A stretch of DNA of 64,000 bases. Source: Pseudarthrobacter phenanthrenivorans Sphe3. GTDB taxonomy: Bacteria > Actinomycetota > Actinomycetes > Actinomycetales > Micrococcaceae. Shown here piece after piece: positions 9,768-60,186 of this stretch; the stretch's first letter is position 1; each line of letters starts with the position of its first letter. The DNA lies in the NCBI RefSeq assembly GCF_000189535.1, contig NC_015146.1, forward strand, positions 124,001 through 188,000. The letters run 5' to 3'. Both the position numbers and the translations under genes were made by a program. The notes under the pieces were generated by a model, which had not been told where the DNA came from, searched no databases, and saw nothing but the letters and a program-made list of their open reading frames with translations.

Positions 9768-10040
9768 ATGCGGTGGGACGGACTGAGCGTGGACCCCAAG
9801 TACCTGGAAGCACTCTTCGCCAAGTACCCGGAGCGTCTTACGCCTCAGGACCTCGAAGAGATCTTCGGGTTGTCCCGAAACACCGTCTACCGCTGGCTCC
9901 AAACCGGAGTGATTCCTGCCTACCAAGTCGAGAAGACATGGTTGATCGCCAGAGATCAAGTCAAGGACTGGGTCTGGGAGAACCGGAACACACTCAGGAA
10001 GGGCCAGACACCGGAAGTGAACGACGAGGACCAGCCCTAG
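9768..10040 (+). CDS. Helix-turn-helix (excisionase/MerR-type) DNA-binding protein
   Basis: A 90-residue protein with a HTH_17-type domain: LTPQDLEEIFGLSRNTVYRW (about 21-40) followed by the wing-like segment GVIPAYQVEKTWLIARDQVKDWV. Such small proteins regulate or assist plasmid and phage genes. It is transcribed divergently from the transfer operon and directly follows the phased AGTAC sites, so it may be their ligand and control both operons; this is inferred from position. The ATG at 9768 was preferred over a GTG at 9750; neither has a strong ribosome site. The next gene begins 33 bp downstream in the same direction. Confidence 0.75.
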   Translation: MRWDGLSVDPKYLEALFAKYPERLTPQDLEEIFGLSRNTVYRWLQTGVIPAYQVEKTWLIARDQVKDWVWENRNTLRKGQTPEVNDEDQP

Positions 10041-29935: not shown

Positions 29936-30235
29936 ATGCCCTTCGCATCAGCTCATAGCATAGGAGCTGTGCCACTCCTTCAAGACCAAGCCCCGGAATC
30001 GCCCCAAGAATGCGGTTCCACTCCCTCTGAAATCGCCACTATGGTGCGCCTGAATCGCGAGAGTCAAGGGCTTACCCAGCATCAGCTTGCGACCCGGATG
30101 GGGTCCACCCAGTCAGTGGTTGCCCGCTGGGAAAGAGGGGACCATGAAATTACCATGGCCAATCTGGCACGGATTGCCGATGCTCTAGGCGTTGTGTTCA
30201 CTGTCCGCTTCGGCACGAAGGATTCCCAGAAATGA
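29936..30235 (+). CDS. XRE-family transcriptional regulator (controller-type)
   Basis: A 99-residue protein with a C-terminal Cro/C1 HTH (MVRLNRESQGLTQHQLATRM..TQSVVARWERG, about 36-90). The stop overlaps the ATG of the first methyltransferase (ATGA), so it is the first gene of the modification operon and probably acts as a controller that times methyltransferase and nuclease expression. The ATG at 29936 is the best in-frame start after the DUF1643 gene; an internal ATG at 30041 would still include the complete HTH. Confidence 0.75.
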   Translation: MPFASAHSIGAVPLLQDQAPESPQECGSTPSEIATMVRLNRESQGLTQHQLATRMGSTQSVVARWERGDHEITMANLARIADALGVVFTVRFGTKDSQK

Positions 30236-33845: not shown

Positions 33846-33853
33846 AGGCTCTC

Positions 33854-33886
33854 GCCCAGTCGACGCAGTTTCTCCGTCGACTGGGC
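33854..33886 (+). terminator. Hairpin between methyltransferase and restriction genes
   Basis: A perfect 12-bp stem GCCCAGTCGACG (33854-33865)/CGTCGACTGGGC (33875-33886) with a 9-nt loop, 8 bp after the second methyltransferase stop. It probably ends or attenuates the modification transcript. Confidence 0.7.
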
Positions 33887-33906
33887 ATATCTGTACTGTA
33901 TGCAAC

Positions 33907-34701
33907 GTGAGCGCGCTTGATGTAGTTCTGGAGAAATTCAGCGAGACAGGGTGGGGTGTTGCCGCGCGCGAAAGCGTCAGCGGTGGCCGCAGCGTCAACC
34001 CTTCACGTGTCGATCTTGTCCGAGGTAAGCAGCGCTTTCTGCTGCTCGCCTATGCCTGGAAGATCACCCACGAAGGCAAAGGCCGGACGGGCATGAATTA
34101 CCGGATCCAGACAACCCGCTCTCACGAAGGCGATCTGCTCCATGAGGAAGGCCGGCAAACCGTTGGGTTTGGTGTAGACGCCGACCGCGAAGTCATTGCG
34201 GCCTTTGACGGCTGGACGAAGCGCGCCACCGGCAGCTCATCGAGTGTCCACATCGACAGGGCGACCCTAGACAAAGCTGCAGCTGACGGATTCGCCGTTG
34301 AAGAACCTCACTGGGACAGCCGGGCAGCGGCACGATATTCCGACGCTCACCTGTTGCTGCCGTGGATCTCCGACCAACAAGCGGCTCGTACTGCCGCCGT
34401 TCAACCCCTCGAGTACGTAATTTCGGACGACGAGGCAACTGTTGTGGCCGACCTGTGGAATTCCGCACCCGCCGCGTGGCTTCGACAGAACGACCGTCTT
34501 GTCCTGGCCAACCGGGAGGGCAATGACCTGCTGGATACGGCGATCTGGCGGATTACCGATCTCAAGGTGAAGACGGTTACCAAGGAAGGGCGCAACCCCC
34601 GTCGAAACGTGACCTTCACCTGTCGGCGCTATGGCCGCGTCACCACCGTCCATAAGGCCACTTTTCTAGCTGGCCTGACTAAGAGGGAGCCCACGCCATG
34701 A
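33907..34701 (+). CDS. Restriction-module protein of unrecognised family (probable specificity/sensor subunit)
   Basis: A 264-residue soluble protein. Around residues 60-125 it reads NYRIQTTRSHEGDLLHEEGRQTVGFGVD..REVIAAFDGW and SSSSVHIDRATLDKAAADG, a pattern I have seen in proteins next to McrBC-type genes but cannot name. The C-terminal part has no clear motif. Its GTG start follows the terminator-like hairpin and its stop overlaps the McrB-like ATG (ATGA), so it is encoded with the ATPase and nuclease. A DNA-recognition role is inferred from its position. Confidence 0.5.
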   Translation: MSALDVVLEKFSETGWGVAARESVSGGRSVNPSRVDLVRGKQRFLLLAYAWKITHEGKGRTGMNYRIQTTRSHEGDLLHEEGRQTVGFGVDADREVIAAFDGWTKRATGSSSSVHIDRATLDKAAADGFAVEEPHWDSRAAARYSDAHLLLPWISDQQAARTAAVQPLEYVISDDEATVVADLWNSAPAAWLRQNDRLVLANREGNDLLDTAIWRITDLKVKTVTKEGRNPRRNVTFTCRRYGRVTTVHKATFLAGLTKREPTP

Positions 34702-35870
34702 GTCTCGCCGACAACGCGAATCTCTTCTACTTCGATGAAGACCATCGCGCCGCCGAAGAAGTTTCGAAATTGCACCTGGAGTCTGCTGACGTTCCAGTGT
34801 TGACCGCCCGTGCCAAGAAGCTCGCGGCGGAAAAGAAGCTGTTGCTGCCGGATGCGGATGCCCTCCTGGAGCGCTGCATCGTAGCCCTGCTTGGAGGACA
34901 CATAGTGCTTCAAGGTCCGCCAGGCACCGGCAAGACGACCTTGGCCTACGTGCTGGCAGAGACGTTCAACGCATCAGCCCACTTGGAGACTGCTACCGCC
35001 GACTGGAGCACTTACGACGTTATCGGTGGGCTGCATCCGACGTCGAAAGGCGGGATTGAGACACTGGTGCCTTGGCTCGGGCATGTGCCACGGGCTGCCC
35101 TGGAATGCGCAAGCGTAATCAGTCGGCACGCGGATGAGGAGGAGGGCAAAACCGAGCCCCACCAAGCTCATTGGCTCATCATCGATGAATTTAGCCGCGC
35201 TGAAATAGATAAGGCCATCGGCCCCCTTTACACGGTCCTCGGAGGTGGGGGTGAGGATGTGCCCCTGCCGCTGTGGTTCGGGGATTCTGAACAGCGAAAC
35301 GCTGTTTGGTTGCCCAAGCGGTTCCGGATTATCGCAACGATGAATACTGTGGACACCAATTACGTGTACACGTTCTCGCAGGGGCTGAGCCGGCGGTTCC
35401 AATTCATTTACGTCGGAGTTCCACAAAAGGAACAGGTGCCGGATGAACTGCGGCAGGCGCGCGTCAGCGCGGCCAGCTGGTATGCCGAGACTTATGGGGA
35501 CCAACGGTTCAACCAAGATGATTTCGTAGCCGACCCGCGATTGGTCCAGGCTTCCGCTGTTTTAGCCGACCTGCTGTTAACGCTTCGCTACGGAGACGAG
35601 GCAACCAACCGTCCCGGCTGGCCTCTTGGTACGGCACAGGTTGTGGACGTTTATCGCCAACTCGCGCTGAGGTTGCCCGCGACCGGCAACACACCCGAGG
35701 CTATGCTGCCCGCTCTTGATCTTGCCCTGGCAGATCGAATCATCCCGCAGGCCGGAAATCTTACGAAGGTACAGCTCGACGCTGCTGAAGCCTGGCTGCA
35801 GACGCAAAAACTACCGCGGACACGTGACGCCCTGCAGCACCTCCGCATGGCCTCCAGCACGGGCTACTGA
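34698..35870 (+). CDS. McrB-like AAA+ NTPase
   Basis: A 390-residue AAA+ protein with Walker A QGPPGTGKTTL (about 73-82), Walker B HWLIIDEFSRAEIDKAIG (about 155-172) and the McrB-type signature FRIIATMNTVDTN (about 208-220; McrB proteins carry MNT.D.S). It should be the motor subunit that translocates DNA for the McrC-like nuclease encoded six bases downstream. There is no N-terminal DNA-recognition domain in this protein, which suggests that the preceding gene supplies it. Confidence 0.85.
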   Translation: MSLADNANLFYFDEDHRAAEEVSKLHLESADVPVLTARAKKLAAEKKLLLPDADALLERCIVALLGGHIVLQGPPGTGKTTLAYVLAETFNASAHLETATADWSTYDVIGGLHPTSKGGIETLVPWLGHVPRAALECASVISRHADEEEGKTEPHQAHWLIIDEFSRAEIDKAIGPLYTVLGGGGEDVPLPLWFGDSEQRNAVWLPKRFRIIATMNTVDTNYVYTFSQGLSRRFQFIYVGVPQKEQVPDELRQARVSAASWYAETYGDQRFNQDDFVADPRLVQASAVLADLLLTLRYGDEATNRPGWPLGTAQVVDVYRQLALRLPATGNTPEAMLPALDLALADRIIPQAGNLTKVQLDAAEAWLQTQKLPRTRDALQHLRMASSTGY

Positions 35871-35875
35871 GCAAA

Positions 35876-37882
35876 GTGGCGCAGGCAACCGACGAAGAAC
35901 TGGTTGATGATGCCGTAGAAGCGGAAGGAGGCCGCTTTACAGCTGCTGGACGACGCGCGGCTATCAATGCATCGTTACCCTTGCTGGCCACGTACTTCGC
36001 GGATGCCCCCACCTGGGAGTTGGAAGTCAGCCAGCAACTCGCCACCACGCCTGATGAAAAGGCCGTTGACGATCTGGCGAAGGCCGTCAGACTGCGGGCT
36101 TCACTGGCAGCGGCGGAAAGGCTGCTCCGCATCCTAGGCGACATAGCCGCCCGCCCCACCTTCCGCTACTCGCAGGTGAGCGCTGAATCGGTCGGACAAA
36201 TCCGTGGCCGCTTGGATCTGTCTCGCTACAGTCGGGAGCATGGGAGGATAGCGGTTCCCAGACGTTATCCAATTCGTTTAGTGGAACGGGAGAATGCCAC
36301 CCCGGAAAACATCCTGGCATCCTACGCCGCGCATTGGATCAGAAGAGATCTGACGACCATGCCCCGAGACTTCCTTCCCGCCAGATCACCGGAACTGCGG
36401 GATCTTCAACGTCTCCAGGACGGACTGGGCCGAAGCCTCGGCCTTCCACTGCTTGCAGGAACCAGCACACTCGCTCTGGATGTATGGCGGCGCTCGGCCC
36501 TTCCAGACCTAATCGAAAGAGTCAATGCCCGGTTAGAGGCCGGGCACATCGCTTCCCCGGAACCCTACAAGGAACTGGCTGACTGGGTGGCAGCAACGCG
36601 TTACGGCACCGCAGTTGCCGATGTAGGAGACCGAGAATGGAGCTTCTACGATTCGCGCTTTGACACCAAACTTTTCGAGATCTGGTGCTTACTGAAGTTA
36701 GCAAACGCCATCACCGCGCTCATTGGGCCTCCCGCGACAGCCGCTAAGAGTCTTGCCCAGCGTAACCGCGGGCCCATGTACACATGGAACATTGGAGCCG
36801 GCAGTCTGCAACTACACTTTCAAGCTTCACTCACGGCGCTGGCCGAAGGTGGTGTGGTGTGGTCATTCGAGCCCGGCCCGGGACAGCTACTGGGCTTTCC
36901 AGATCTGGCAGTTACCGCTGATACGGTCGCCGGACGTGGCTTAGCGATCTTCGACCCAAAACTGCGGCGCAGACCTGGGAAAGTACCAACGGAGGAGCTG
37001 TACAAACTGCTGGGCTATTTCGGTAACTTAAAGCACTCCAAGCCTCCGATGGGAGCAATTTTCTACTACAGCCCGGGAGAGCTGACCGATCACACTCTCA
37101 TCAGCGATCAAGGCGGCGAGCTCCATGCGCTCGGGCTAGATCCCGAAGTTGACTCTATGACACCCTTCGAGGCAGCGGCACGGTTGGCGGTTAAAGCAGC
37201 TGGATTGGGGGAGCGATCTCTGTCTCTTCTTGGAGCTCCGAGACCGGAAGATTCCTCCGATGCAGGCGAATTTACAGCCGCAATTCACCAGGAGGTAGCA
37301 GTTGATGCGATGCGGCGAGAAGCCGACAGATTACCGCCCTCAACGCTCGGACCCACCCTGAAAGCAACCGAAACGTCGCTACGTGCCATCTGGCCGCAGC
37401 TTGATGAGCAAGCTCAGACCATGATCGTCACAGCCGAGTATTTCGGACTCAACGCCCCCAGAAATGCAGACCATTCAGGTCCGTTGCTTGGGCTGGCAGC
37501 AGCATTCGAAAGGGTATTGAACGAACGAATTTTCCACCCCGCTGCGGAGAAGTATGGTGCGCTCATAAACCTCACTCAGACTTTAGGAGGTCGTCTCCAC
37601 ACTCTCGATGCAGCCCTACGGGGGCGTAGCGAACCCGAGGCGAAGGCCATCGCAGCTTTCCTAAAAAGCCAGCAGAATATCGATAGCCCCAACCTGCAGG
37701 CGATTCTCCGCGATTCGAAAAATATGAACCGTTTGTACCGCATACCCGCTGCTCATTCAGACATCGTGGCATTTAAAACCTGGGCGGATGGCCGCGACAT
37801 CATCTTGGACCCACGTGAAGGGCTATTGGTCAGGTTGATGAAGTCGTTTGCAGCTGACGTCACAACGGCGACTGCCGACTGA
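35876..37882 (+). CDS. McrC-like nuclease with DUF2357-type domain
   Basis: A 668-residue protein. The N-terminal part resembles DUF2357 of McrC-like proteins (QIRGRLDLSRYSRE, ENILASYAAHWI). The nuclease core is of PD-(D/E)xK type: GFPDLAVTAD (about 340-349) then GLAIFDPKLRRRPGKVPTEELYKLLGYF (about 353-380), where FDPK supplies the last acid and lysine. The ~250-residue C-terminal helical extension is not recognised. The GTG at 35876 follows the McrB-like stop by 5 bp. It is the effector of the restriction module. Confidence 0.8.
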   Translation: MAQATDEELVDDAVEAEGGRFTAAGRRAAINASLPLLATYFADAPTWELEVSQQLATTPDEKAVDDLAKAVRLRASLAAAERLLRILGDIAARPTFRYSQVSAESVGQIRGRLDLSRYSREHGRIAVPRRYPIRLVERENATPENILASYAAHWIRRDLTTMPRDFLPARSPELRDLQRLQDGLGRSLGLPLLAGTSTLALDVWRRSALPDLIERVNARLEAGHIASPEPYKELADWVAATRYGTAVADVGDREWSFYDSRFDTKLFEIWCLLKLANAITALIGPPATAAKSLAQRNRGPMYTWNIGAGSLQLHFQASLTALAEGGVVWSFEPGPGQLLGFPDLAVTADTVAGRGLAIFDPKLRRRPGKVPTEELYKLLGYFGNLKHSKPPMGAIFYYSPGELTDHTLISDQGGELHALGLDPEVDSMTPFEAAARLAVKAAGLGERSLSLLGAPRPEDSSDAGEFTAAIHQEVAVDAMRREADRLPPSTLGPTLKATETSLRAIWPQLDEQAQTMIVTAEYFGLNAPRNADHSGPLLGLAAAFERVLNERIFHPAAEKYGALINLTQTLGGRLHTLDAALRGRSEPEAKAIAAFLKSQQNIDSPNLQAILRDSKNMNRLYRIPAAHSDIVAFKTWADGRDIILDPREGLLVRLMKSFAADVTTATAD

Positions 37883-45767: not shown

Positions 45768-45828
45768 CCTGGGTGTAAACATCCTGCTGCTTACGCCTTC
45801 GAGCATGCCACACCGGTTTGTGATGGTG

Positions 45829-46236
45829 CAGGCTCGCGGGGCTCGCCCTGGTTTCCGCTGCGCTTCAACCAGATAGAGGGCGTCCGCTGGCGCGGCCGGC
45901 TGTTGGGTCCAGGGGGCGCCGTCGCAGAGCTCCGGACCCCCTGGCCCTTCTTGTCTACGACGTTTTCTGGTTGCTGTCCTTCGGATTGTACGCGTCCGCT
46001 CCGCCCTATCTAGCCCCTCCTTCGTCGGGGCCTGCGGTGCAGGAATTTCCCTTCGGCGCTCGTTCCTCGCTGATTTCCTCCGGGAATTTCCCGCCCCTTG
46101 CCCTGCGGGTAGACAGGGCTCCGTCGGCCGCCAAGCAAGCAAGCTTGCCAGCAACCAAAAAACACCGGGGGGAGAGGGGAGCTGGCCGGTCACCTAAGCC
46201 GCCCGACCCACCCACGTCTCTGCAAGGACAAAAACC
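45829..46236 (+). repeat. Structured leader repeat, copy 1 (408 bp)
   Basis: First of three near-identical direct repeats, each ending exactly at the ATG of a gene. Relative to copies 2 and 3 it differs by one missing G near 45840 and C instead of G at 45991. Internal self-complementary arms are described under copy 2. It precedes the 143-aa gene at 46237. Confidence 0.9.
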
Positions 46237-46668
46237 ATGAACGCAGTAATCAAAAAGACCGTGACCCTCGCGGATACCGGGGAAACTATCGACGGCGTGA
46301 CCGTGCTGGGTGACTACCACATGAACGGCGGCTACGACTGGATGGAACTGATCGAAGAGCACGGCTGGGCCGTGCTCTCCAGCTGGGGCTGTGATGGCTG
46401 GGACCTGGGCCAGTGGCCCTACGTCATGGTCGCCGTCACCCGCACCGCTGACAGCGTCGGCAACCTGTTCGGCATCGCCACCTATTGCGAGGGCGACGTG
46501 ACCTGCACCTACTACCGGAGGAAAGCCCGGCTGTGGGACGCGATTACCGAGCAGGCGTTCTACCACTGGAAGAACGGGCAGGCCCAAGGCCCGGCGGACC
46601 TGCCCGAGGCCGCCGCAGAACTGCCCAGCCGGTACCGGATGCCCTACGCCGTGCGGGACGCCGCCTAA
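46237..46668 (+). CDS. Hypothetical acidic protein, leader-driven gene 1
   Basis: A 143-residue acidic protein starting MNAVIKKTVTLADTGETIDGV. The centre is rich in Gly, Asp and Trp (GGYDWMELIEEHGWAVLSSWGCDGWDLGQWPYVMV), with a cysteine at YCEGDVTCTYY. No signal peptide or membrane segment. It is the first of three genes behind the 409-bp leader. The family is not recognised; its acidity and place in the likely leading region make it a candidate anti-defence protein, which is inference only. A 16-bp hairpin follows. Confidence 0.75.
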   Translation: MNAVIKKTVTLADTGETIDGVTVLGDYHMNGGYDWMELIEEHGWAVLSSWGCDGWDLGQWPYVMVAVTRTADSVGNLFGIATYCEGDVTCTYYRRKARLWDAITEQAFYHWKNGQAQGPADLPEAAAELPSRYRMPYAVRDAA

Positions 46669-46682
46669 CCAGCACTGACAAC

Positions 46683-46718
46683 GGCTGTACTGCCCGGCCC
46701 GAGCCGGGCAGTACAGCC
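46683..46718. terminator. Perfect 16-bp hairpin
   Basis: GGCTGTACTGCCCGGC (46683-46698) pairs with GCCGGGCAGTACAGCC (46703-46718) around a CCGA tetraloop. It lies between two genes read in the same direction and has no T-run, so it may be a processing or stabilising element rather than a terminator. Confidence 0.65.
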
Positions 46719-46744
46719 GACACCATCTTCGAAGGAGACAGCAC

Positions 46745-47095
46745 ATGAGCAACGACGCCACCGCCCCCAAGGGCATCACCGCCTTGGTCTACCGCGACGC
46801 CCTGGGTACGGACTTCTCCAACCGGGGCATCTCCGCCCGCGTCATGGAAGTCGCCGTGATCGGGGAGGGCATCGACCCGGTTTTCGAGGCCACCGAGGAA
46901 CGGCCCGCCGTCCGGCTCGTCAAAACCGAGCACTTCCACCGCGAAACCGTGATCCACGCCGAGCCGGTAGCCCCGGAAGGTGAACCCGCACCGTGGTACA
47001 TGTTCGGCGGCACGTTCATCTTCAGCAGTGACTCCCGGTTCCGCCGCGCAGCCGGACACTACGGAGCCGTCCCGCTGCACGACCGCCGCGAATAG
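46745..47095 (+). CDS. Hypothetical protein following leader-driven gene 1
   Basis: A 116-residue soluble protein, MSNDATAPKGITALVYRDALG.... The middle is acidic (VAVIGEGIDPVFEATEERPA) and the end aromatic/basic (WYMFGGTFIFSSDSRFRRAAGHYG). GAAGGAG precedes the ATG. No family recognised. It shares the transcription direction of the leader-1 gene and lies 76 bp beyond it, across the hairpin, so it is probably part of the same unit. Confidence 0.7.
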   Translation: MSNDATAPKGITALVYRDALGTDFSNRGISARVMEVAVIGEGIDPVFEATEERPAVRLVKTEHFHRETVIHAEPVAPEGEPAPWYMFGGTFIFSSDSRFRRAAGHYGAVPLHDRRE

Positions 47096-47133
47096 GCCCG
47101 AGGGTGGCCGGTCTTTCGGGGCCGGTCACCGCG

Positions 47134-47187
47134 GGCGGTCCGCCGTCGTGGCCGGCTTTCGTTGGTGGTCGCCGGCGGCGGACCGCC
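47134..47187. repeat. Paired palindromes GGCGGWCCGCC, copy 1
   Basis: GGCGGTCCGCCG (47134-47145) and CGGCGGACCGCC (47176-47187) are inverted copies 42 bp apart. The same pair, spaced 43 bp, recurs at 55324-55378 after the ParB-like gene. Confidence 0.65.
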
Positions 47188-47281
47188 AATCCCGCAGCAA
47201 CCAGGTGCCGACTGGCAGCCGCCGGCGGCAGCCACGAGGCGGTGGTGTCGTTGGGTTGTCACTGGGCAGGGGAGTGGAAGG

Positions 47282-47690
47282 GCAGGCTCGCGGGGCTCGC
47301 CCTGGTTTCCGCTGCGCTTCAACCAGATAGAGGGCGTCCGCTGGCGCGGCCGGCTGTTGGGTCCAGGGGGCGCCGTCGCAGAGCTCCGGACCCCCTGGCC
47401 CTTCTTGTCTACGACGTTTTCTGGTTGCTGTCCTTCGGATTGTAGGCGTCCGCTCCGCCCTATCTAGCCCCTCCTTCGTCGGGGCCTGCGGTGCAGGAAT
47501 TTCCCTTCGGCGCTCGTTCCTCGCTGATTTCCTCCGGGAATTTCCCGCCCCTTGCCCTGCGGGTAGACAGGGCTCCGTCGGCCGCCAAGCAAGCAAGCTT
47601 GCCAGCAACCAAAAAACACCGGGGGGAGAGGGGAGCTGGCCGGTCACCTAAGCCGCCCGACCCACCCACGTCTCTGCAAGGACAAAAACC
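47282..47690 (+). repeat. Structured leader repeat, copy 2 (409 bp)
   Basis: Identical to copy 3 as far as I can read. Self-complementary arms include AGATAGAGGGCG (47325-47336) with CGCCCTATCT (47456-47465); CCAGGGGG with CCCCCTGG inside that loop; TGGTTGCTG (47422-47430) with CAGCAACCA (47603-47611); two GGAATTTCC palindromes; and the palindrome GCAAGCTTGC. It ends with AAGGACAAAAACC at the ATG of the DUF4192 gene. Confidence 0.92.
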
Positions 47691-48704
47691 ATGAACGACT
47701 TCATCAAATTCACCGGTCCGGCCGACATCCTGGCCTTCATCCCGCACACGCTGGGCGAGACCCCGACAGAGTCCTTCGTCGCGATGACGGTGCAAGGCAA
47801 CAAGCTCGGCGCGACCCTGCGCGTGGATGCCCCGTTCGGGCAGGACCCGGTTGCTTACGCCCAGACCATCGTCAGCTACCTGACCGCCGACGAGGCCGCA
47901 ACCGGCAGCCTGCTGGTCATCTACACCGATGAAACCACCACGGACGGCACCCACCCCTATGCCCGGCACGTGGAGGCTCTGCGCAGGGAACTGGAAACCG
48001 CAGAAATGCCGCTGCAGGACGCATGGCTGGTGACCTCCGAGCTGTGGCGGAACTACCACTGCACAGACGGCAGCTGCTGCCCTGCCCAGTCGCTGGACAC
48101 CATCACCACGAGCAACGGCAACGCCGCGCTGATCTACAGAGGGAGCGCCGTCACTGGATTTAGCGCCCCGGCACCCTTCACCGGAGACGAGATGGCGCGC
48201 GAGGCTATCGCCGCGCACAAGCTCGACGGCTGGCCCGAAGACCTCGAAGCAAGCCGGGCAGCATGGGCTAAGGTGCTGGACGACCCCAAGAGCCTGACCA
48301 CCCACACCGCACACCAGCTGGCAGGAGCGCTGCAGCACCCCACCATCCGGGACTACATGATGAGTGACATCGTCCCCCACGCCCCCGAGCAGTTCACCTC
48401 CATCATGCTCGGTGTGTTCCTGAGCCGCCCAGACTGGGCCCGCGTGGACACCGCCCAGGAAGTCGCCTTCGAGCTGATGAAAGCCACCCCGGAAGGCCAG
48501 CGCGCCCCGATGCTGTGCCTGATCGGCTGGCTGGAATGGCTCAAAGGACGGTCCAGCTTCGCCGCCCGGTACTTCAAGCTCGCACTGGAGGACGTGGCCG
48601 GATACCGGCTGGCGGAGCTGCTGGGCGAACTGGTCAACCGTGGCCTCATCGCGGACTGCACGAGGGACCCGAAAAAGGCCTATGACCGCCGCCTGAAGCG
48701 CTAG
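47691..48704 (+). CDS. DUF4192 family protein, leader-driven gene 2
   Basis: A 337-residue protein beginning with the DUF4192 signature IKFTGPADILAFIPHTLGETPTESFVAMTVQGNKLGATLRVDAP. The second half contains the family's GWLEWLKGRSSFAARYFKLALEDVAGYRLAELL. DUF4192 proteins are common on actinobacterial plasmids and chromosomes and have no known activity. The ATG is fixed by the leader repeat, whose AAGGA lies at normal spacing. A terminator hairpin follows directly. Confidence 0.88.
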   Translation: MNDFIKFTGPADILAFIPHTLGETPTESFVAMTVQGNKLGATLRVDAPFGQDPVAYAQTIVSYLTADEAATGSLLVIYTDETTTDGTHPYARHVEALRRELETAEMPLQDAWLVTSELWRNYHCTDGSCCPAQSLDTITTSNGNAALIYRGSAVTGFSAPAPFTGDEMAREAIAAHKLDGWPEDLEASRAAWAKVLDDPKSLTTHTAHQLAGALQHPTIRDYMMSDIVPHAPEQFTSIMLGVFLSRPDWARVDTAQEVAFELMKATPEGQRAPMLCLIGWLEWLKGRSSFAARYFKLALEDVAGYRLAELLGELVNRGLIADCTRDPKKAYDRRLKR

Positions 48705-48714
48705 CCCCGACACC

Positions 48715-48747
48715 GGGCCGGGCCCCACTGCAAAGAGGGGTCCGGCC
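48715..48747 (+). terminator. Terminator of the DUF4192 gene
   Basis: GGGCCGGGCCCC pairs with GGGGTCCGGCCC across the loop ACTGCAAAGA, 10 bp after the stop codon. Confidence 0.7.
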
Positions 48748-48812
48748 CTCATCGTTGATCGTCCCCAGGTGCGCGGCGGCCTCCCCCGCGTGCGCACTGA
48801 GGAGAATTGCAA

Positions 48813-49212
48813 CTGTGGCAGGGCAGTAGTTCCTGGCTTACCCGCATGTTGACGTTCGGCACAGGACCGGATCTGTATTGGAGGAGATTTGTCGGTTCGA
48901 TTGCTCTGCCCGTCTCGAACCAAAGGTTTGGCTATGGCGAGCCTGATGTTTGGAGACAGGCCAACTGCCGAGAATGAGACTGTGGCAGGGGAGCAGTTCC
49001 TGACTTGCCCGCTGCGTGACGTTCGGTACTTGGTGCATGAATCTGTCTATGCGGAGATCTGTCGGTACAGCTGTCCTGCCACTCACCTAGGGCGACCGGG
49101 CCGGACGGAGTCGTGACTTGATAGGAACGTGCAGCTTAGCTTTTCAGTGCTTTGTCCGCCCGGCCCGGTCAATCGTGCTCGCCATTCTCAACCTCGACAG
49201 GAATGAGGCGGC
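48813..49212 (+). ncRNA. IS110-element left non-coding end with imperfect duplication; probable bridge-RNA region
   Basis: About 400 bp without a gene upstream of an IS110-family transposase. Two imperfect direct copies of about 100 bp start at 48813 and 48980 (CTGTGGCAGG, GCAGTTCCTG/AGTAGTTCCTG, GACGTTCGG, TGTCGGT). In IS110-type elements this upstream stretch encodes the bridge RNA that pairs with donor and target DNA. The exact RNA limits cannot be set by eye. Confidence 0.5.
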
Positions 49213-50277
49213 ATGACTCTGACAACGACACACCCCGCCAAGGCTGTAACCATCGGAGTGGACACCCACCAGCTGGTCCACCATGCAGCTGCAGTAGATC
49301 AGGACGGGCGAATGCTCGGCGACCGAGAATTCCCCTCGGACCGCGGGGGCTACCAACAACTGCTGGACTGGGCAGCAAGCTTCGGCATCATCAACGCATT
49401 CGGCATCGAATGCACCGGATCCTACGGCGCGGGCCTGACCCGGCACCTTCTCGCGGCAGGGATCGATGTCGTAGAGGTAAACAAGAGCCACTCTCAAGTC
49501 CGTCACCGCGTCGGTAAGAGCGACGCTGTCGACGCTGAAGCTGCTGCCCGCAAAGTTCTCTCTGGTGAATGCACAGATCCAGCGAAGGACACCACCGGAG
49601 CGGTCGAAGCAATCCGCAATCTTCACCTGGTCAGAGACTCTGCGATCAAGGCCCGCAGCGCGGCATGTGTTCAGCTGCGGGATGTTCTGCTCACCGCACC
49701 GGATCATCTCAGGACCAGGCTGACCGCCAGAACCCTCGAGGGCAAAGCCACTCAAGCCCGCGCCCTGCGGCCGGATCTGAGCCGGATCCACGAGCCCGAG
49801 CAGGCAGTGAAATACGCACTGCGGGAGCTCGGCCGCCGCGTTTACGAGCTCACGGCCGAAATCAACGAGGTAGACAAGCATCTGACTCGGCTGGTCTCCG
49901 CCGTGGCACCCAACACCCTGGCGCTGCCCCAAGTCGGCCCCGTCAGTGTCGCCCAACTACTCATAACCGCCGGTGAGAACTTCGAGCGCTTCCGCAACGA
50001 AGCCGCGTTCGCCCGGCTCTGCGGCGTCGCTCCCATCCCCGTCTCCTCCGGGAAATCACACCGCATGCGGCTCCACCGGGGAGGCAACCGCCAAGCCAAC
50101 AGGGTCATCTACCTCATAGCCATCTGCCGACTTCGCTATGACCCAAGGAGCCAGGCATACCGTGACCGCAAACGTGCTCAAGGGCACTCATCAGCCGACG
50201 CCATCCGCTGCCTCAAACGCTTCATCGCCCGCGAGCTCTACTACAGCCTCAAAAGGGACCTGACCCAGACAAGATAA
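49213..50277 (+). CDS. IS110-family transposase (DEDD recombinase)
   Basis: A 354-residue protein. The N-terminal RuvC-like DEDD domain has IGVDTHQLVHHAAAVD, GIECTGSYG and VGKSDAVDAEAAAR; the C-terminal transposase_20 domain contains LPQVGPVSVAQLLITAGE and the serine region in SGKSHRMRLHRGGNRQANRVIY. IS110 elements use a bridge RNA from their non-coding end to choose the target and make no inverted repeats, so the element's limits are not visible. AGGAATGAGG precedes the ATG. Confidence 0.9.
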   Translation: MTLTTTHPAKAVTIGVDTHQLVHHAAAVDQDGRMLGDREFPSDRGGYQQLLDWAASFGIINAFGIECTGSYGAGLTRHLLAAGIDVVEVNKSHSQVRHRVGKSDAVDAEAAARKVLSGECTDPAKDTTGAVEAIRNLHLVRDSAIKARSAACVQLRDVLLTAPDHLRTRLTARTLEGKATQARALRPDLSRIHEPEQAVKYALRELGRRVYELTAEINEVDKHLTRLVSAVAPNTLALPQVGPVSVAQLLITAGENFERFRNEAAFARLCGVAPIPVSSGKSHRMRLHRGGNRQANRVIYLIAICRLRYDPRSQAYRDRKRAQGHSSADAIRCLKRFIARELYYSLKRDLTQTR

Positions 50278-50312
50278 GGGCAACCTGGAAGTCTGGCTGA
50301 CAACGAGGAAGA

Positions 50313-50804
50313 CTACTCGGCGCGTCTCTTGCTGCGGCTTGCAACTAGACCAGCTAGAAGGGCACCAATAAGAGAGAGGACTAGGGGCGATTTGGCCCCT
50401 TCTATCAAGATGTACACCAGCAGCGGGTAGTGTTCCTCGCCGGCACGGGGTCCTCCTGATGCAAGCGGGGTGGCCCACAAAGCAGCGACAGTCAGAAGTG
50501 CAAGAGCGACAAGGCGGGCGGGTGTGCCGTGTACGAGCAGGCGGTATGTGAGGACTGCTGCAAGCCCGACAAGAACGAGACAGAGCCGCCACACGTACGG
50601 CAACCAGTCGCCGGGAACTCCAACAGCGCGCCCATCGAGACCCAAGACAGCATGAATCTCGGACAGCTGCAGCTGCATCGTGAGGTAACCCGTCAAGCAG
50701 ATCACCACCAAGGAACCGACTCCAGCGATTACAACTGAAAGCGCCGAGCTTCGCTTCGAAGTTGAAACCGTACTCCCCGTAGCCGGGCTATCCGTCTTCT
50801 CCAT
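50313..50804 (-). CDS. Hypothetical membrane protein
   Basis: A 163-residue protein with four likely transmembrane helices (about 25-47, 70-90, 97-112, 130-152) and a basic C-terminal end RSKRRAE. The ATG at 50804 with GGGGGA just upstream is preferred over one six codons earlier. No family is recognised. It stands between the IS110 gene and the second IS256-family copy. Confidence 0.65.
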   Translation of the reverse strand: MEKTDSPATGSTVSTSKRSSALSVVIAGVGSLVVICLTGYLTMQLQLSEIHAVLGLDGRAVGVPGDWLPYVWRLCLVLVGLAAVLTYRLLVHGTPARLVALALLTVAALWATPLASGGPRAGEEHYPLLVYILIEGAKSPLVLSLIGALLAGLVASRSKRRAE

Positions 50805-50915
50805 TGAAATCCCCCATTTCATTCTTCCTATGACTCTAAACCTCGCGGAAAACTTTTCGGACAGCGGACAGTCTCAAACTGGCTGACAGTCCAAGGCGCT
50901 AAGAAGCGACTGAGG

Positions 50916-52297
50916 GGGACTGTCCGATAAACGGTGTGTGGAGTCCGGCCGGTTTTCATTGTTGAGTGGTTCTTTCGAACCGGCCAGCGAAGGTAATAGC
51001 GAACGCGTTTAGCGCAGGCTTCCACCTCATCACCCAGCGTGCACGGCCACCGCCGGTTGGATCAAGAGATCTGGTGACCAGGTATAGGCATTTCAGGGCA
51101 GCGGTCTCGTTCGGAAAGTGCCCGCGGGCCCTCACCGCCCTTCGGTAGCGTGCGTTGATCGACTCGATCGCGTTCGTCGTGCAGATGACCCGTCGGATCT
51201 CCACGTCGTACTCCAGGAAGGGCACGAATTCGGCCCAGGAGGATTCCCAGAGCCGTACGATGGCCGGATACCGCTGGCCCCACTCGGCAGTGAATTCGGC
51301 GAACCGGTCCTTCGCCGCCTGCTCGGACGGGGCCGTGTAGACCGGCTTGAGCGCCTTGACGATGCCGTCGCGGTGCTGGCGTCCGGCGTAGCGGAAGCTG
51401 TTGCGGATCAGGTGCACGATGCACTGCTGCACCACCGTCCGCTCCCACGTGGTCGTGATCGCCTCCGGCAGGCCTTTGAGCCCGTCGCAGACGGCGATCA
51501 GCACATCTTCCACGCCCCGGTTCTTCAGCTCCGAGAAGACCTGCAGCCAGAACCGGGCACCCTCGCCACCGTCGCCGGCCCAGATGCCCAGGATCTCCCG
51601 CTCCCCATTGGTGGTGACGCCCATAACGACGTAGAACGGGGTGTTGCGCACCTGCCCGTCACGGACCTTGACCACGACCGCATCAACGAACAGCACCGGA
51701 TAGATCGGATCCAAAGGCCGGGCCGACCATTCGGCCAGTTCTCCGGCGACTTTCTCCGTGATGCGGCTGATGGTGTCTTTAGAGACTCTGGCCCCGTAGA
51801 CCTCCTCGAAGTGGGCGGCGATTTCCCCGGTCGTCAGCCCCCGGGCAGAGAGGGAGAGCACGATCTGGTCGATCCCGTCCAGACGCCGTTTCCGCTTGGG
51901 CACGATCACCGGTTCGAACGACCCGTCCCGATCCCGGGGCACCTCAATCTCGACCGGACCGATCTCGGTCAACACGGTCTTTGACCTGGTGCCGTTGCGC
52001 ATGTTGGCTGCGATCGGTGTCTGGCCGTGCTCGTGGCCGAGGTGCTCTGTCAGCTCGGCTTCCAGAGCGGTCTCCAGCACATTTCTCGTGAGTTGGTTCA
52101 GCAGCCCGCCCGGGCCTACCAGGCTCACGCCCTGTTCCTTGGCCTGCGCGAGCAACCGCTCCGCAAGCTCCTTCTGATCGATGATCTCTCCCGTCACAGG
52201 ATCGATCATCACCCCTGCCATCTCGGACGTGGACTCTGACACGGCCGTCTCCTTTCGGATCAGGCCGGACTCCACACACCGTTATTCAGACAGTCCC
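50916..52297 (-). mobile_element. IS256-family insertion sequence, copy 2 (1382 bp)
   Basis: Same length and same encoded transposase as the copy at 22820-24201, in opposite orientation. It is flanked by an exact 8-bp target duplication GACTGAGG (50908-50915 and 52298-52305). It is inserted in the last codons of a lipoprotein gene. Confidence 0.9.
50956..52242 (-). CDS. IS256-family transposase (second copy)
   Basis: A 428-residue protein identical in the translated sequence to that at 22875-24161, with the same GTG start and AAGGAG. Two inverted identical copies 27 kb apart can recombine and invert the segment between them, which includes the defence island and the mercury-resistance element. 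Confidence 0.9.
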   Translation of the reverse strand: MSESTSEMAGVMIDPVTGEIIDQKELAERLLAQAKEQGVSLVGPGGLLNQLTRNVLETALEAELTEHLGHEHGQTPIAANMRNGTRSKTVLTEIGPVEIEVPRDRDGSFEPVIVPKRKRRLDGIDQIVLSLSARGLTTGEIAAHFEEVYGARVSKDTISRITEKVAGELAEWSARPLDPIYPVLFVDAVVVKVRDGQVRNTPFYVVMGVTTNGEREILGIWAGDGGEGARFWLQVFSELKNRGVEDVLIAVCDGLKGLPEAITTTWERTVVQQCIVHLIRNSFRYAGRQHRDGIVKALKPVYTAPSEQAAKDRFAEFTAEWGQRYPAIVRLWESSWAEFVPFLEYDVEIRRVICTTNAIESINARYRRAVRARGHFPNETAALKCLYLVTRSLDPTGGGRARWVMRWKPALNAFAITFAGRFERTTQQ

Positions 52298-52747
52298 GAC
52301 TGAGGCCGTTTCCACCGATAGGAGCCGGGCGTAGTTCAGACACATGCTCAGGCTTTCATTGCCGGGAACACGAGCACCGGACAGAGAAACCGACTCACCC
52401 TCGGATACGGACGAGCTGTCAGGAAGGACCAATGACTCACCATCGAACTTCGTACCTTCAGGAAAGACCAACGTGTAATCATCACCGTCGTCCGCGCGGA
52501 CGATAAAGCAGCCCGCTCCATCATTATCGAGACGTCCCGTAAGCTGGGCGTCTTCTCTCGGAGCGGTTGACGGGCCAGAATGCACTACGGCCTTTTTGCC
52601 ACCCTCACTAAGAAGCAGCTCTGTTGGTAACTCCTGCACCACAGAAGGCGAGCTGCTGGCCGTCGGAGAGTCTTGGGCTACCGCGGAGCAGGAAGCCAGG
52701 GAGAACGCAATGATGGTCAAAGCACCGAAGGAAAGTGTGTGTTTCAT
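52286..52747 (-). CDS. Lipoprotein, C-terminus rewritten by IS256-family insertion
   Basis: A 153-residue protein with a lipoprotein signal (MKHTLSFGALTIIAFSLASC, acylated Cys at about 20), a Ser/Thr/Pro linker and an acidic domain with two cysteines (GAGCFIVRADDGDDY and LSMCLNYARL). The start at 52747 follows GGGGA. The IS enters just before the stop: the present end is ...ETASVGTV, while restoring the target site would give ...ETASVAS and then TAG, so only the last residues are changed and the protein is probably functional. No family is recognised. Confidence 0.7.
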   Translation of the reverse strand: MKHTLSFGALTIIAFSLASCSAVAQDSPTASSSPSVVQELPTELLLSEGGKKAVVHSGPSTAPREDAQLTGRLDNDGAGCFIVRADDGDDYTLVFPEGTKFDGESLVLPDSSSVSEGESVSLSGARVPGNESLSMCLNYARLLSVETASVGTV

Positions 52748-52975
52748 TTCTGTCCCCAATCAGAATGAGCTGTGTTGCCCCAGCCTAAAGCTGAAGCGGA
52801 AACGAGGCACCGATTCAGACTTGACTGCAACTAAATCGGTACAGGGGTTGTCTATAGGAACATCTCCGCCGGCCGCGTAAACGCTGCGCGGGCGGCGCCA
52901 CTTCCAGCCCGCGCGCAGGAACTGCCGATACTGTGAAAGGGAGCCTCATCCCCGCACAGCCAAGGAGTCCCGAGC

Positions 52976-53128
52976 ATGGCAGATCAATTCCGCATGACCG
53001 AGGACGATACCGTTTCCCCGGACGCGAGCTCCCTGGAAGACATCCTGGAACTGGCCCTGCTGACAGCAGGCTCCGCCACCGGCCCCGTGGACCGGCCCAG
53101 GAAGAACCACCGAGACTACGAGCTGTAA
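52976..53128 (+). CDS. Small acidic protein (50 aa)
   Basis: A short plus-strand gene below common length cut-offs. AAGGAG lies nine bases before the ATG; the product starts MADQFRMTEDDTVSPDASSL, has a helical DILELALLTAG middle and a basic end. It is followed by a strong hairpin at 53183-53215. It is probably a real small plasmid protein; no family recognised. Confidence 0.6.
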   Translation: MADQFRMTEDDTVSPDASSLEDILELALLTAGSATGPVDRPRKNHRDYEL

Positions 53129-53182
53129 CCCCAAGCAGCACCGACGCTGCCCCCAACAGTTTCCTTTTGCCGAGGAGAAGCG

Positions 53183-53215
53183 CGAAGGGCCGCACATAAA
53201 TGTGTCGGCCCTTCG
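53183..53215. terminator. Bidirectional terminator hairpin
   Basis: CGAAGGGCCG (53183-53192) pairs with CGGCCCTTCG (53206-53215), between the convergent 50-aa and membrane-protein genes. Confidence 0.75.
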
Positions 53216-53452
53216 TCATGTCCGCCGCGCAAGCATCCACAGGATCACGGCGGCGAGGCCGTTGAGGAAAACGATAAAGAGGTCACCGGCAGCAGGCCGG
53301 CCGACAGCAAGATCCACGACCACCAGCACCGCCGATCCGAGCGCGGCAACGGTGAACACCACAGCCAGGACCCGCCAGGTCCTCGGTGACATCCATGCGC
53401 TTGCGCGCCTGGCTTCACCGTTGTGGCCAGGGCGTGGCGCCGGATCGCTCAT
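53216..53452 (-). CDS. Small two-helix membrane protein
   Basis: A 78-residue protein with two hydrophobic helices (about 27-48 and 57-75) and a short polar N-terminal tail. Its stop abuts the terminator at 53183-53215. No family recognised. It lies just upstream of leader copy 3 but in the opposite direction. Confidence 0.6.
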   Translation of the reverse strand: MSDPAPRPGHNGEARRASAWMSPRTWRVLAVVFTVAALGSAVLVVVDLAVGRPAAGDLFIVFLNGLAAVILWMLARRT

Positions 53453-53477
53453 TCCCTAACCCTACTCAGGGGCAACG

Positions 53478-53886
53478 GCAGGCTCGCGGGGCTCGCCCTG
53501 GTTTCCGCTGCGCTTCAACCAGATAGAGGGCGTCCGCTGGCGCGGCCGGCTGTTGGGTCCAGGGGGCGCCGTCGCAGAGCTCCGGACCCCCTGGCCCTTC
53601 TTGTCTACGACGTTTTCTGGTTGCTGTCCTTCGGATTGTAGGCGTCCGCTCCGCCCTATCTAGCCCCTCCTTCGTCGGGGCCTGCGGTGCAGGAATTTCC
53701 CTTCGGCGCTCGTTCCTCGCTGATTTCCTCCGGGAATTTCCCGCCCCTTGCCCTGCGGGTAGACAGGGCTCCGTCGGCCGCCAAGCAAGCAAGCTTGCCA
53801 GCAACCAAAAAACACCGGGGGGAGAGGGGAGCTGGCCGGTCACCTAAGCCGCCCGACCCACCCACGTCTCTGCAAGGACAAAAACC
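53478..53886 (+). repeat. Structured leader repeat, copy 3 (409 bp)
   Basis: The same sequence as copy 2, ending at the ATG of the ParB-like gene. The repeat begins abruptly at GCAGGCTCG in all three places, with unrelated sequence upstream, so the unit itself was duplicated. Confidence 0.92.
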
Positions 53887-55233
53887 ATGAACGCAACACC
53901 CACGCTCGAAATGCTCGACCCGGCAACCCTCACCGTTGACATCAACGTCCGCAAGGACGCCGCCCTGACCTCGGATTTCATCGCCAGCATCAAGGAACAC
54001 GGCGTCATGGAACCCGTGATCGCCCACCGCAGGGACGACGGCACCGTGCACGTCCTGATGGGCCAGCGCCGCACCCGCGCCGCCGTCGAAGCGGCACGGC
54101 CCCTGATCCCCGTCATGATCATCGAAAGCCCCGAGGAAGCCGAACGCATCGTCACGCAGGTAGTGGAGAACATCCAGCGCGCCGAACTCACTGAAGCCGA
54201 CGAGGCCGACGCCTACCACCAGCTGTCCCTGATCGGCGTCTCGGCCGCCGCGATCGCCAAGAAGACCGGACGGACCAAGACCACCGTCGAGTCCGCCCTC
54301 AAAGCCAAGGCCACCGAGACCGGAGCCGCGGCCCTGGGCAAGGGCTACACGGTCGAGGAAGCCCTGATTCTGGCCGAGTTTGAGTCAGACGAGGAAGCCA
54401 CAGCCGAACTCGAGTCCGTCATCATGGACGAACCCGACATGCTCCTGCACGTCACCCAGCAGCTGCGCGACAAGCGCGACCGCGCCGCAGCGTTGGCCGC
54501 ACTCACCGCCGAACTGGAAGCGGCAGGAACGATTGTTGTTCCCGAATGCGGGTACGGGGAGGACAGCGAAACCCTCCGGGTCACGTCCCTGAAAAGGGCA
54601 GATGGTGAACCGGCCACCGACGAAGATGGAAACGCCGTCTACATCGAGTCGGACTATCGCGGCGAACACTCCGCCGTCGCCGTGGTCACCGGCTGGAAAG
54701 AACTGGGCTTCACGCTCCGCTACTACAGCGGCTACGGCACGTCATCGGCCCCGAAAGGCCCGATGACCGAGGAACAGAAGGCCGAACGGAAGACCCTGAT
54801 CGAAAACAACAAGCTGATGCAGTCAGCTACGACCGTCCGGCGTGAATGGGTCAAGAACCTGCTGGCGAAGAAGCAGGCCCCCAAGGGTTGGCAGTACTTC
54901 ACCCTCCACGCGATCACCCACCACTCCGAAACCGCCAGCGGATACGAAGGGAAGGTGGCCGCAGAGATGGTCGGGGCGAAGTTCGAAGAGTCCAGCCAGT
55001 GGGCGTGGAACCCGCTCAGGGACCACGTCGCCAAGACGACCACACGGCCGGAGTTTGGACTGATTGCGCTGATCTGCGCCGGGTATGAAAAGACCATCCA
55101 AAAAGACTCGTGGCGCTCACCGAGCCAAACCCACCGGGACTACCTGAACCAGCTGGTGGCATGGGGATACACCGCAAGCGAGGTTGAGCAGATCATCATC
55201 GACAGCGGCGAAAAGGCTAAGACAGCCGGATAG
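53887..55233 (+). CDS. ParB/RepB/Spo0J-like protein, leader-driven gene 3
   Basis: A 448-residue protein. The N-terminal ParB domain contains SIKEHGVMEPVIAHRRDDGTVHVLMGQRRTRAA (GQRRTRAA is the nucleotide-binding box) and VVENIQRAELTEADEADAY, followed by a HTH (VSAAAIAKKTGRTKTTVES). The C-terminal 250 residues are not typical of ParB partition proteins and have no ParA partner nearby. ParB-like proteins of this kind are frequent in the leading regions of conjugative plasmids. The ATG is set by the leader repeat. A large hairpin follows. Confidence 0.85.
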   Translation: MNATPTLEMLDPATLTVDINVRKDAALTSDFIASIKEHGVMEPVIAHRRDDGTVHVLMGQRRTRAAVEAARPLIPVMIIESPEEAERIVTQVVENIQRAELTEADEADAYHQLSLIGVSAAAIAKKTGRTKTTVESALKAKATETGAAALGKGYTVEEALILAEFESDEEATAELESVIMDEPDMLLHVTQQLRDKRDRAAALAALTAELEAAGTIVVPECGYGEDSETLRVTSLKRADGEPATDEDGNAVYIESDYRGEHSAVAVVTGWKELGFTLRYYSGYGTSSAPKGPMTEEQKAERKTLIENNKLMQSATTVRREWVKNLLAKKQAPKGWQYFTLHAITHHSETASGYEGKVAAEMVGAKFEESSQWAWNPLRDHVAKTTTRPEFGLIALICAGYEKTIQKDSWRSPSQTHRDYLNQLVAWGYTASEVEQIIIDSGEKAKTAG

Positions 55234-55280: not shown

Positions 55281-55323
55281 GGGCCGAATCATCGCAGGAA
55301 GGCCCGGAACCTTCCAGAATTCG

Positions 55324-55378
55324 GGCGGTCCGCCGCCCAGGGCGAACCACAGCAACCACTCACCAGCGGCGGACCGCC
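55324..55378. repeat. Paired palindromes GGCGGWCCGCC, copy 2
   Basis: GGCGGTCCGCCG (55324-55335) and CGGCGGACCGCC (55367-55378), the same arrangement as at 47134-47187. Confidence 0.65.
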
Positions 55379-55490
55379 GTCCTGCGCCAGGAACCAGGAA
55401 CATAGAACAGGTGCCGCGCTCCAGCAATGAGGCTGGAAAGGAACGCGGCCATCACGTCAGCTAGACTGACCCATAGATTTCTTGCAGAGA

Positions 55491-56658: not shown

Positions 56659-57555
56659 GTGGCCACCCTGCGCCCGGTCGTCGGGTACAAACTCAGCCCA
56701 CGGATCCCGTTGGAGGTGGACCTGTTCCGCCAGGTTAACCCCAGCGGCAGGATTCCCACCGACATTGTGGACCCCTACTCTGTGGAGCCCGCCATTGTGG
56801 AACCCCTCAGTGAGGACCTGTACGACGACTATGCCAACCCAGGCAACGGTGGGGATGACCGGTACCTTGAAGCGATCAGCCGCCGCCCGCTGGGGGAGGG
56901 GAGTCTCTGGGATGCCCACACTGCGGACCAGTACCAACCCAACGACCTCACCCACGACGAACCGGGTGGGACCGAACCTCAAAACGAACCCGCACCAGAC
57001 ACCGAAAACATCACCAGCGCACGAGGAAAAGGAACCATTATGGCCGGCGAAACCACCATCACAGTCATCGGAAACCTGACATCGGACCCAGAGCTGCGCT
57101 TCACTCCGAGTGGGTCGGCGGTAGCAAATTTCACCATCGCCTCCACGCCCAGGACGTTCGACCGTCAGTCCAACGAGTGGAAGGACGGGGAGACGCTTTT
57201 CCTCCGGGCCAGTGTGTGGCGGGAAGCGGCTGAGAACGTGGCCGAGTCCCTGACTAAGGGCATGCGCGTGATCGTGACCGGCCGGCTGAAGTCCCGTTCC
57301 TACGAAACCAAGGAAGGCGAAAAGCGCACCGTAATCGAACTCGAAGTCGACGAGATCGGACCCTCACTCCGGTACGCCAATGCCAAGGTCAACCGCACCC
57401 AGCGCAGCACCCAGGGCGGGCGGGGGAACGACTACCAGGGCAGCGCCAACAGCCGGCCACAGTCCGGCCCGCAGGACGATCCCTGGGCCGTGCCGGCCAA
57501 CAGTAACGCGGCCGGCGGATGGGGCAACGGACCCGACTCCGAACCTCCCTTCTAA
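56659..57555 (+). CDS. ssb: Single-stranded DNA-binding protein with N-terminal extension
   Basis: A 298-residue frame. From the internal ATG at 57040 (preceded by AAAAGGA) it encodes a normal 171-residue [25 protein letters not shown]-fold start, [40 protein letters not shown], a Gly/Gln-rich linker and the acidic tip ending DSEPPF. In front of it, without a stop, lie 127 codons from GTG 56659 of an acidic, Pro-rich segment of good coding character. Either a fused SSB is made, or the upstream part is an overlapping product with SSB starting internally. SSB protects incoming single-stranded plasmid DNA. Confidence 0.85.
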
Positions 57556-59764: not shown

Positions 59765-60186
59765 AACTGTACCTTTCGCTTGCCCTATGCCGCGTTCCTT
59801 TCGGCACGCTTGCCGAGACTTGGCCGGTGAAGGAATTGGCCAGTCGGAGTCAGTCGGACCGTGGAATACCGGAGCGGAGCGAGGATATGCCGCGAAAGCC
59901 GGCTGTGGAGACTTGCCAAGGAAGGACCGGGCAGTAGCCTCAACCAGCCGAAACGGAACGACGCAGTCGTTTTGAACAGGTCAGACGCGCAGCGTCCTGC
60001 AGGGCAGTGCCCAGGAACCACCCAAAGCGCCAAATACGTGCGCTGGTGATTTCCCGGAGCAAGCTAGGCGGTTATGTGCCATAACCCGCGTGTTGATCCA
60101 CGGCCTGCGGCCCTGGATGCGGCACACTCGTCAGTGTGGCCCGGAGGTTCCGGGGCGCTGCGCTGGGCATGGGGGAGGGGACCAGG
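59765..60186. other. Candidate oriT and divergent promoter region
   Basis: The gene-free interval between the HTH gene and the mobC-relaxase operon holds several structures usual for an origin of transfer: direct repeats CAGTCGGA at 59841 and 59851, an inverted repeat AACGAC/GTCGTT (59957-59962, 59966-59971), AGCGC/GCGCT (60026-60030, 60040-60044) and a hairpin GGTTAT/ATAACC (60070-60075, 60081-60086). The nic site itself is not recognised. Confidence 0.55.

Follow-up and report, generated by a model that had tools for sequence, protein, structure and literature searches.

Repeated leaders in a Pseudarthrobacter genome as candidate promoters of single-stranded plasmid DNA

Why should one replicon of Pseudarthrobacter phenanthrenivorans Sphe3 carry the same 409-nt leader in front of three different genes? 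The leaders lie in a stretch of 64,000 nt (contig NC_015146.1, positions 124,001 to 188,000; hereafter the window, whose own numbering is used throughout), which is part of the 190,450-bp contig C2, one of three contigs in a 4.54-Mb genome. Since the window encodes MobC, a relaxase and a match to a TraG/D coupling protein, C2 would most likely be a plasmid that can conjugate or be mobilised. We propose, with a probability of about 0.75, that the leaders are single-stranded-DNA (ssDNA) promoters of the plasmid leading region, Frpo-like in function and unrelated to Frpo in sequence. This interpretation, which the original prediction had put forward, is supported in silico by the layout of the region, the inferred direction of nicking and the covariation of paired arms, with expression from ssDNA as its predicted outcome.

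Promoter elements and fold of the leaders

The three leaders occupy positions 45828-46236, 47282-47690 and 53478-53886 of the plus strand, and precede genes for a 143-amino-acid (143-aa) protein, a DUF4192 protein and a ParB-like protein, respectively. Copies 2 and 3 have the same sequence, from which copy 1 departs by a single substitution, at unit position 164. The original prediction was thus right about three near-identical 409-bp copies, and needs correction in two details: copy 1 begins at 45828 rather than 45829, and differs at one position rather than two. The length of the copies and their near-identity exclude a chance origin. Each leader stops at the base directly before an ATG and contains AAGGA, a ribosome-site-like stretch. 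The flanks are unrelated, with 24-28 of 100 bases matching upstream and 35-39 of 100 downstream, and the unit contains self-complementary arms; the earlier description was confirmed on the upstream flanks, on the arms and on the different gene that follows each copy at once. No further copy was found in positions 1-124000 of C2.

Each unit holds a sigma-70-like promoter which, in duplex DNA, is directed away from the gene. In copy 1, the -10 element TACAAT lies at 45985-45990 of the minus strand and the -35 element TAGATA at 46007-46012, with a spacer of 16 (copies 2 and 3: -10 at 47439-47444 and 53635-53640, -35 at 47461-47466 and 53657-53662). When both strands of 135 distinct aligned rows were scanned (the aligned region begins about 50 nt into the unit), a single place, on the minus strand, displayed TAnnnT in more than 90% of the rows, and no plus-strand position did so. 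The -10 variants were TACAAT (71 rows), TAGAAT (54), TACGAT (four), TATGAT (four) and TAAAAT (two), and the -35 always stood 16 columns away, for example as TAGACG in 76 rows and TAGAGG in 25. The TAnnnT motif was kept in all 163 distinct near-complete aligned copies. An independent scan of a whole window copy returned exactly one sigma-70-like site, again on the minus strand, with a shuffle mean of 0.0. A profile search confirmed the element in 20 further stretches from 19 genomes and nine further genera. These distant copies comprise 40 matches, many with 63-75% identity over the core. All 39 with letters there have A as the second and T as the sixth base of the -10, and 16 of 39 read TTGAC at the -35.

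Folding of the minus strand is predicted to turn this promoter around. The main hairpin spans 45962-46163 of the minus strand in copy 1 (47416-47617 and 53612-53813 in copies 2 and 3), with a base helix formed by 45962-45976 and 46149-46163, and an accessory hairpin, P2, was located at 45905-45947 (47359-47401 and 53555-53597). In the folded minus strand the promoter arm would pair with the gene-side arm, the template, whose segment TAGACAGGGC at 46110-46119, in plus-strand letters, stands opposite the -35 arm (47564-47573 and 53760-53769), and the same -35 and -10 would then face the gene. Judging from the -10 spacing, transcription would start at plus-strand position 46147 (47601 and 53797), near unit position 320, leaving an untranslated leader of 90 nt. 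The -10 falls within a loop in which 15 alignment columns (103-117) stand opposite 17 (259-275), and a 12-pair helix comes next. The -10 side of this loop is better conserved than the opposite side, a pattern that would fit recognition of the non-template -10 by sigma. High conservation was also seen in the apical loop, about GGCGCTC.T.C.TCGCT.

Which strand folds in the cell can be asked of energies and of pair changes. With DNA parameters, the core fold gave mean z scores of -5.0 (minus strand) and -4.4 (plus strand) in 34 of the 135 near rows, and of -4.0 and -3.5 in 39 distant rows; the minus strand was the more stable one in every core, near (135) and distant (39) alike. The type of imperfect pair is informative about the strand under selection, because an A.C mismatch on the plus strand reads as G.T on the minus strand. 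We therefore counted, by parsimony, the changes from Watson-Crick pairs. The arms covary in the aligned copies, as the original prediction required of homologues, and the 53 main-hairpin pairs predicted from both strands displayed 71 changes to A.C versus 36 to G.T in the plus-strand reading (p 0.0009), a lean to the minus strand. The same lean was obtained with the pairs of the plus-strand RNA fold (72 versus 38, p 0.0015) and with those of the minus-strand fold (90 versus 36). Reversions on shared pairs stood at 24 to 1. By stretch, shared pairs leaned to A.C in 43 of 62 cases and to G.T in nine, with 10 ties. The transcribed leader was reversed, with 34 A.C versus 53 G.T (p 0.053). Substitutions in paired columns were balanced (G>A 86, C>T 81, A>G 63, T>C 56), and those in unpaired columns were unbalanced and tracked composition. 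When 26 of the more distant copies were folded, both arms paired again, with at least two Watson-Crick types at 28 of 53 pairs; the minus reading yielded 87 G.T versus 28 A.C, in a structure itself predicted from the minus strand.

Orientation of the family and the transferred strand

The leader belongs to a large family spread over plasmids of the Micrococcaceae. A blastn search of the unit against 72,556 PLSDB plasmid records, plasmid F included, matched 180 places in 61 records, of which 42 are typed conjugative, and matches were confined to Arthrobacter, Paenarthrobacter, Pseudarthrobacter and Citricoccus. In a same-genus sample the unit was matched in 125 of 198 genomes, and a family sample of 295 genomes from 32 genera, with E up to 0.001, gave matches in 75 genomes and 14 genera, some of them short pieces only. 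A piece of some 29 nt (leader positions 51-79, window 47332-47360) turns up without the rest of the unit, at 93-100% identity, in contigs from other genera of the family, for example at G269:C15:178180 and G386:C3:3324079.

We examined 62 stretches picked for containing matches, namely 60 fetched around same-genus matches, the window, and the second contig with the element in the same cell, C3 (94,456 bp), which carries four copies at 83%. None of the 62 stretches had its matches (208 in total) on mixed strands. A relaxase homologue was present in 20 stretches, where all 65 leader copies lay on the relaxase strand and 63 of them upstream of the relaxase; the other two are upstream only if C3 is circular. 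The original expectation, copies confined to one side of oriT and placed before plasmid early-type genes, held wherever this was visible. Among the 185 copies that reach the 3' end, 179 are followed by a called gene, and five gene families account for 173 of these: ParB-like (57), DUF4192 (47), 143-aa (37), DprA (28) and DUF3846-like (four, so labelled from a sub-threshold match). The remaining six are singletons. Copy identity had a median of 0.891 within a stretch (158 pairs) versus 0.794 between stretches, as if the copies of one stretch were homogenised.

The leading-region interpretation depends on where the plasmid is nicked. We located a likely oriT core with its inverted repeat at 60055-60086 on the minus strand, inside the range of 59.8-60.2 kb that had been suggested from the sequence. 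Upstream of mobC, a scan that demanded CAAG and left the flanking letters and spacing unconstrained yielded, in 19 of 25 segments, an AGCAAG core with an inverted repeat next to it toward the relaxase; the letters flanking the core were AGCAAGCT in 18 of these and AGCAAGTT in one. Three of the six exceptions show the repeat with one mismatch in the alignment, and the repeat varies on both arms from one relaxase type to another. One plasmid, L061, is similar from CGGAGCAAGCTA rightward and dissimilar leftward, as expected if exchange occurred at the nick.

According to passages of PMC4652767, the hairpin lies 5' to the core, the DNA downstream of the core is led out, and the core of a MOBP plasmid is CTTATGCTCTT. 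The minus-strand order here is the repeat, then TAGCTTGCTCCG, which has TGCTC in common with that MOBP core. This order, read with the cited rule, points to a nick on the minus strand near 60059/60060 and to leftward transfer. The transferred strand would then be the template of the leader genes, which read rightward toward the nick; the opposite arrangement, with genes transcribed away from it, had been named beforehand as the outcome that would count against the idea. The leaders adjoin the inferred oriT, and the folded strand that would be transferred turns the -35 and -10 toward the gene in silico.

Mechanism, known systems and rival explanations

The sequence of events that we propose is as follows. 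The relaxase would nick the minus strand at about 60059/60060, and this strand would enter the recipient 5' end first, with the leaders early. Each single-stranded leader would fold into an imperfect hairpin of about 200 nt, whose distal arm would supply the non-template -35 and -10 (TAGATA-16-TACAAT here) and whose gene-side arm would serve as the template, with the -10 held in an unpaired or weakly paired junction of about the size of a transcription bubble. The housekeeping RNA polymerase might then start near the predicted site and transcribe the three genes behind the leaders (143-aa, DUF4192 and ParB) in the direction of oriT. Second-strand synthesis would remove the hairpin, so that the promoter would no longer be directed at the gene, and the leader may also prime this synthesis, as reported for Frpo.

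Several results weigh against this proposal. The -35 of the window copies fits the consensus at only four of six positions, and the full TAnnnT is present in only 21 of 40 distant rows. The same promoter scan detected nothing in either Frpo copy of F. The loop with the -10 holds a predicted 3-pair helix on the -10 side, which includes the last T of the -10, and a 2-pair helix on the facing side, and would thus be a junction rather than an open bubble. One whole unit folds no better than shuffles, with z at -0.5 when the coding strand is folded as RNA and at -1.1 when the opposite strand is folded as DNA. Shuffled cores favour the minus strand too, by 3.9 to 4.3 kcal/mol, and reached the observed mean in 123 of 680 and 174 of 780 cases; because shuffles partly reproduce the energy bias, the strand case rests on the pair changes. 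Pairs from the plus-strand fold alone leaned by stretch to A.C in 15 and to G.T in 30, with 17 ties, and those from the minus-strand fold alone to A.C in 61 and to G.T in none, with one tie; since the fold of each strand selects its own G.T pairs, the shared set is the fair one. In addition, the copies share ancestry, so that their counts are not independent, and the nick strand is placed by comparison rather than mapped.

The closest known systems are those of the F and ColIb-P9 plasmids, where, according to portions of PMC9849209 and PMC11541004, Frpo1, Frpo2 and the ColIb-P9 elements are ssDNA promoters in which a stem-loop of the transferred strand rebuilds the -35 and -10. For Frpo1 and Frpo2, PMC9849209 deals with the in vivo situation. 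The likeness lies in repeated elements of a leading region whose genes read toward oriT, the described elements standing before ssb, ParB-like and psiB genes (PMC9849209 and PMC11541004, in part). Plasmid F served as a control: its ssb and psiB share a strand with a ParB-like gene and read toward traM, repeats stand before ssb and a second gene, and the minus strand is predicted to form a long imperfect hairpin at both repeats (-63.7 and -62.6 for the minus strand, -62.3 and -56.7 for the plus strand). The systems also differ: the relaxase of F is of the MOBF type and that of the window is MobA/VirD2-like (MOBP in the related FB24 plasmid), the leader targets include DUF4192 and DprA, and the host phylum is another one. 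By blastn, the leader unit matched neither F nor any other enterobacterial plasmid of PLSDB, and membership in the Frpo/ssi sequence family was rejected on this ground.

The original prediction also knew of nothing of this kind described in actinobacteria, which finds no support in that form. What are evidently the same repeats were printed by Mihasan and Brandsch in 2016, 5' of DUF4192, DprA and ParB genes in 12 plasmids, as cited in passages of PMC10494377 and PMC6305408, which treat them as a marker of shared partitioning and conjugation. Neither an ssDNA-promoter reading of these repeats nor any actinobacterial ssDNA promoter was found in titles and abstract openings, a search that left subscription journals mostly outside. 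Actinobacteria and Actinomycetota are absent from the main text of the leading-region survey PMC11541004, and so are Actinomycetota and Arthrobacter from that of PMC12826799, which detects Frpo by similarity. As far as their excerpted text goes, these surveys relied mostly on similarity to Frpo/ssi, one of them adding a structure-and-consensus search in four chosen islands, and the ssDNA promoters described belong to, or resemble, the Frpo/ssi elements of F-like and ColIb-type plasmids.

Three other explanations must be weighed against the ssDNA promoter. The leader could be transcribed from a double-strand promoter and act as a conventional structured RNA at the 5' end of the message, in the manner of an attenuator or riboswitch, with the hairpin working as plus-strand RNA. 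Such an RNA would account for a unit that ends at the start codon with AAGGA and a conserved untranslated part, for the G.T lean of its last part (34 versus 53) and for a core that also folds well on the plus strand. However, the aligned unit has no conserved plus-strand promoter, the upstream flanks are unrelated, the pair changes of the main hairpin lean to the other strand on shared pairs, and no Rfam family was matched in the whole window at gathering thresholds; we consider this explanation improbable. A slightly poorer candidate is a site at which RNA polymerase or primase merely starts the second strand, gene adjacency being secondary. It has the same strand requirement, and it would give a role to the conserved apical loop, which is common with elements of another family and which a promoter alone does not need. 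Frpo, going by the title of Masai and Arai 1997, reportedly combines both promoter and priming roles. A priming site, however, need not lie directly before start codons, nor before five gene families in 173 of 179 cases. Folded ssDNA recognised by host RNA polymerase is also a property of the sso of Gram-positive rolling-circle plasmids; sso prime replication and, unlike the leaders proposed here, are not promoters before genes.

The least probable of the alternatives is a repeat that regulates establishment genes as double-stranded DNA, or one that the ParB-like protein binds. A precedent exists in EGeRS1, long repeats before several establishment operons in Gram-positive plasmids of the pLS20 family (PMC8708921, in part), a ParB gene is among the leader targets, and the papers citing the 2016 repeats, in the portions noted above, frame them in terms of partitioning and conjugation. 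In pLS20, however, the transferred strand is the non-template one, and the authors reject ssDNA promoters (sections of PMC8708921); here it would be the template by the inferred nick, and an EGeRS1 class was rejected on that basis. Moreover, a protein site needs neither paired arms nor a conserved -35 and -10 within a hairpin.

If the leaders are ssDNA promoters, their presence across an actinobacterial family, unrelated in sequence to Frpo, would point to more than one origin of the strategy. The many homologous copies make promoter elements in folded ssDNA readable from conservation, and a promoter on the wrong strand together with pair changes that tell the folding strand may offer a route for recognising such elements elsewhere. 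More tentatively, and with less confidence than in the promoter itself, one may picture a switch that responds to strand state and originated independently in actinobacterial plasmids: the second strand would turn the promoter off and reverse its direction, the regulon of DprA, ParB-like, 143-aa and DUF4192 genes would protect the arriving strand, and related elements would lie near single-strand DNA-binding protein (SSB) genes in another family of the order. In that other family, we observed a repeat pair, 88% alike, that ends tens of nt before start codons (L150 102-445 and 1842-2185, L149 about 9913-10025). These repeats are on the relaxase strand, precede a gene weakly similar to SSB, and have the apical loop motif in common with the leaders; no obvious -10 was found in them.

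Genes behind the leaders and neighbouring features

The first leader is followed by the gene of the 143-aa protein (46237-46668, plus strand), which has a confident predicted fold; it returned no match in Pfam, PADLOC or PHROGs, and no clear structural match to that fold. The second gene of this unit encodes a 116-aa protein (46745-47095, plus) of PHROG 6045, function unknown. The DUF4192 protein (PF13830) is encoded at 47691-48704 and the ParB_N-domain protein (PF02195) at 53887-55233, both on the plus strand. Together with DprA, the DUF4192 and 143-aa proteins are likely products of first-minute genes of plasmid establishment. A leader and DprA gene pair is present in other plasmids, including C3 of the same cell, and none was found in the window. 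One IS110-type and one Mutator-type transposase separate the DUF4192 gene from the third leader (48705-53477). Inverted repeats GGCGGTCCGCCG...CGGCGGACCGCC, alike and found by eye, lie after the first leader unit (47128-47185) and after the ParB gene (55320-55380), and are perhaps terminators.

An SSB (PF00436) is encoded at 56659-57555, between the leaders and oriT and on the leaders' strand, in agreement with the ssb that had been noted nearby; it has no leader copy of its own. MobC (PF05713, 60136-60579) and the MobA/VirD2-like relaxase (PF03432, 60579-62135) follow on the plus strand. The TraG/D-type coupling protein lies on the minus strand at 1762-3570, with its PF12696 match at 1942-2298.

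Elsewhere in the window, positions 30232-37882 encode on one strand two DNA methylase-domain proteins and an AAA_5 ATPase, with a 668-aa protein without Pfam match nearby, possibly a restriction or defence island. Mutator-family transposases at 22842-24161 and 50956-52275 have identical Pfam scores, and probably represent a single insertion sequence present twice, in opposite orientations.

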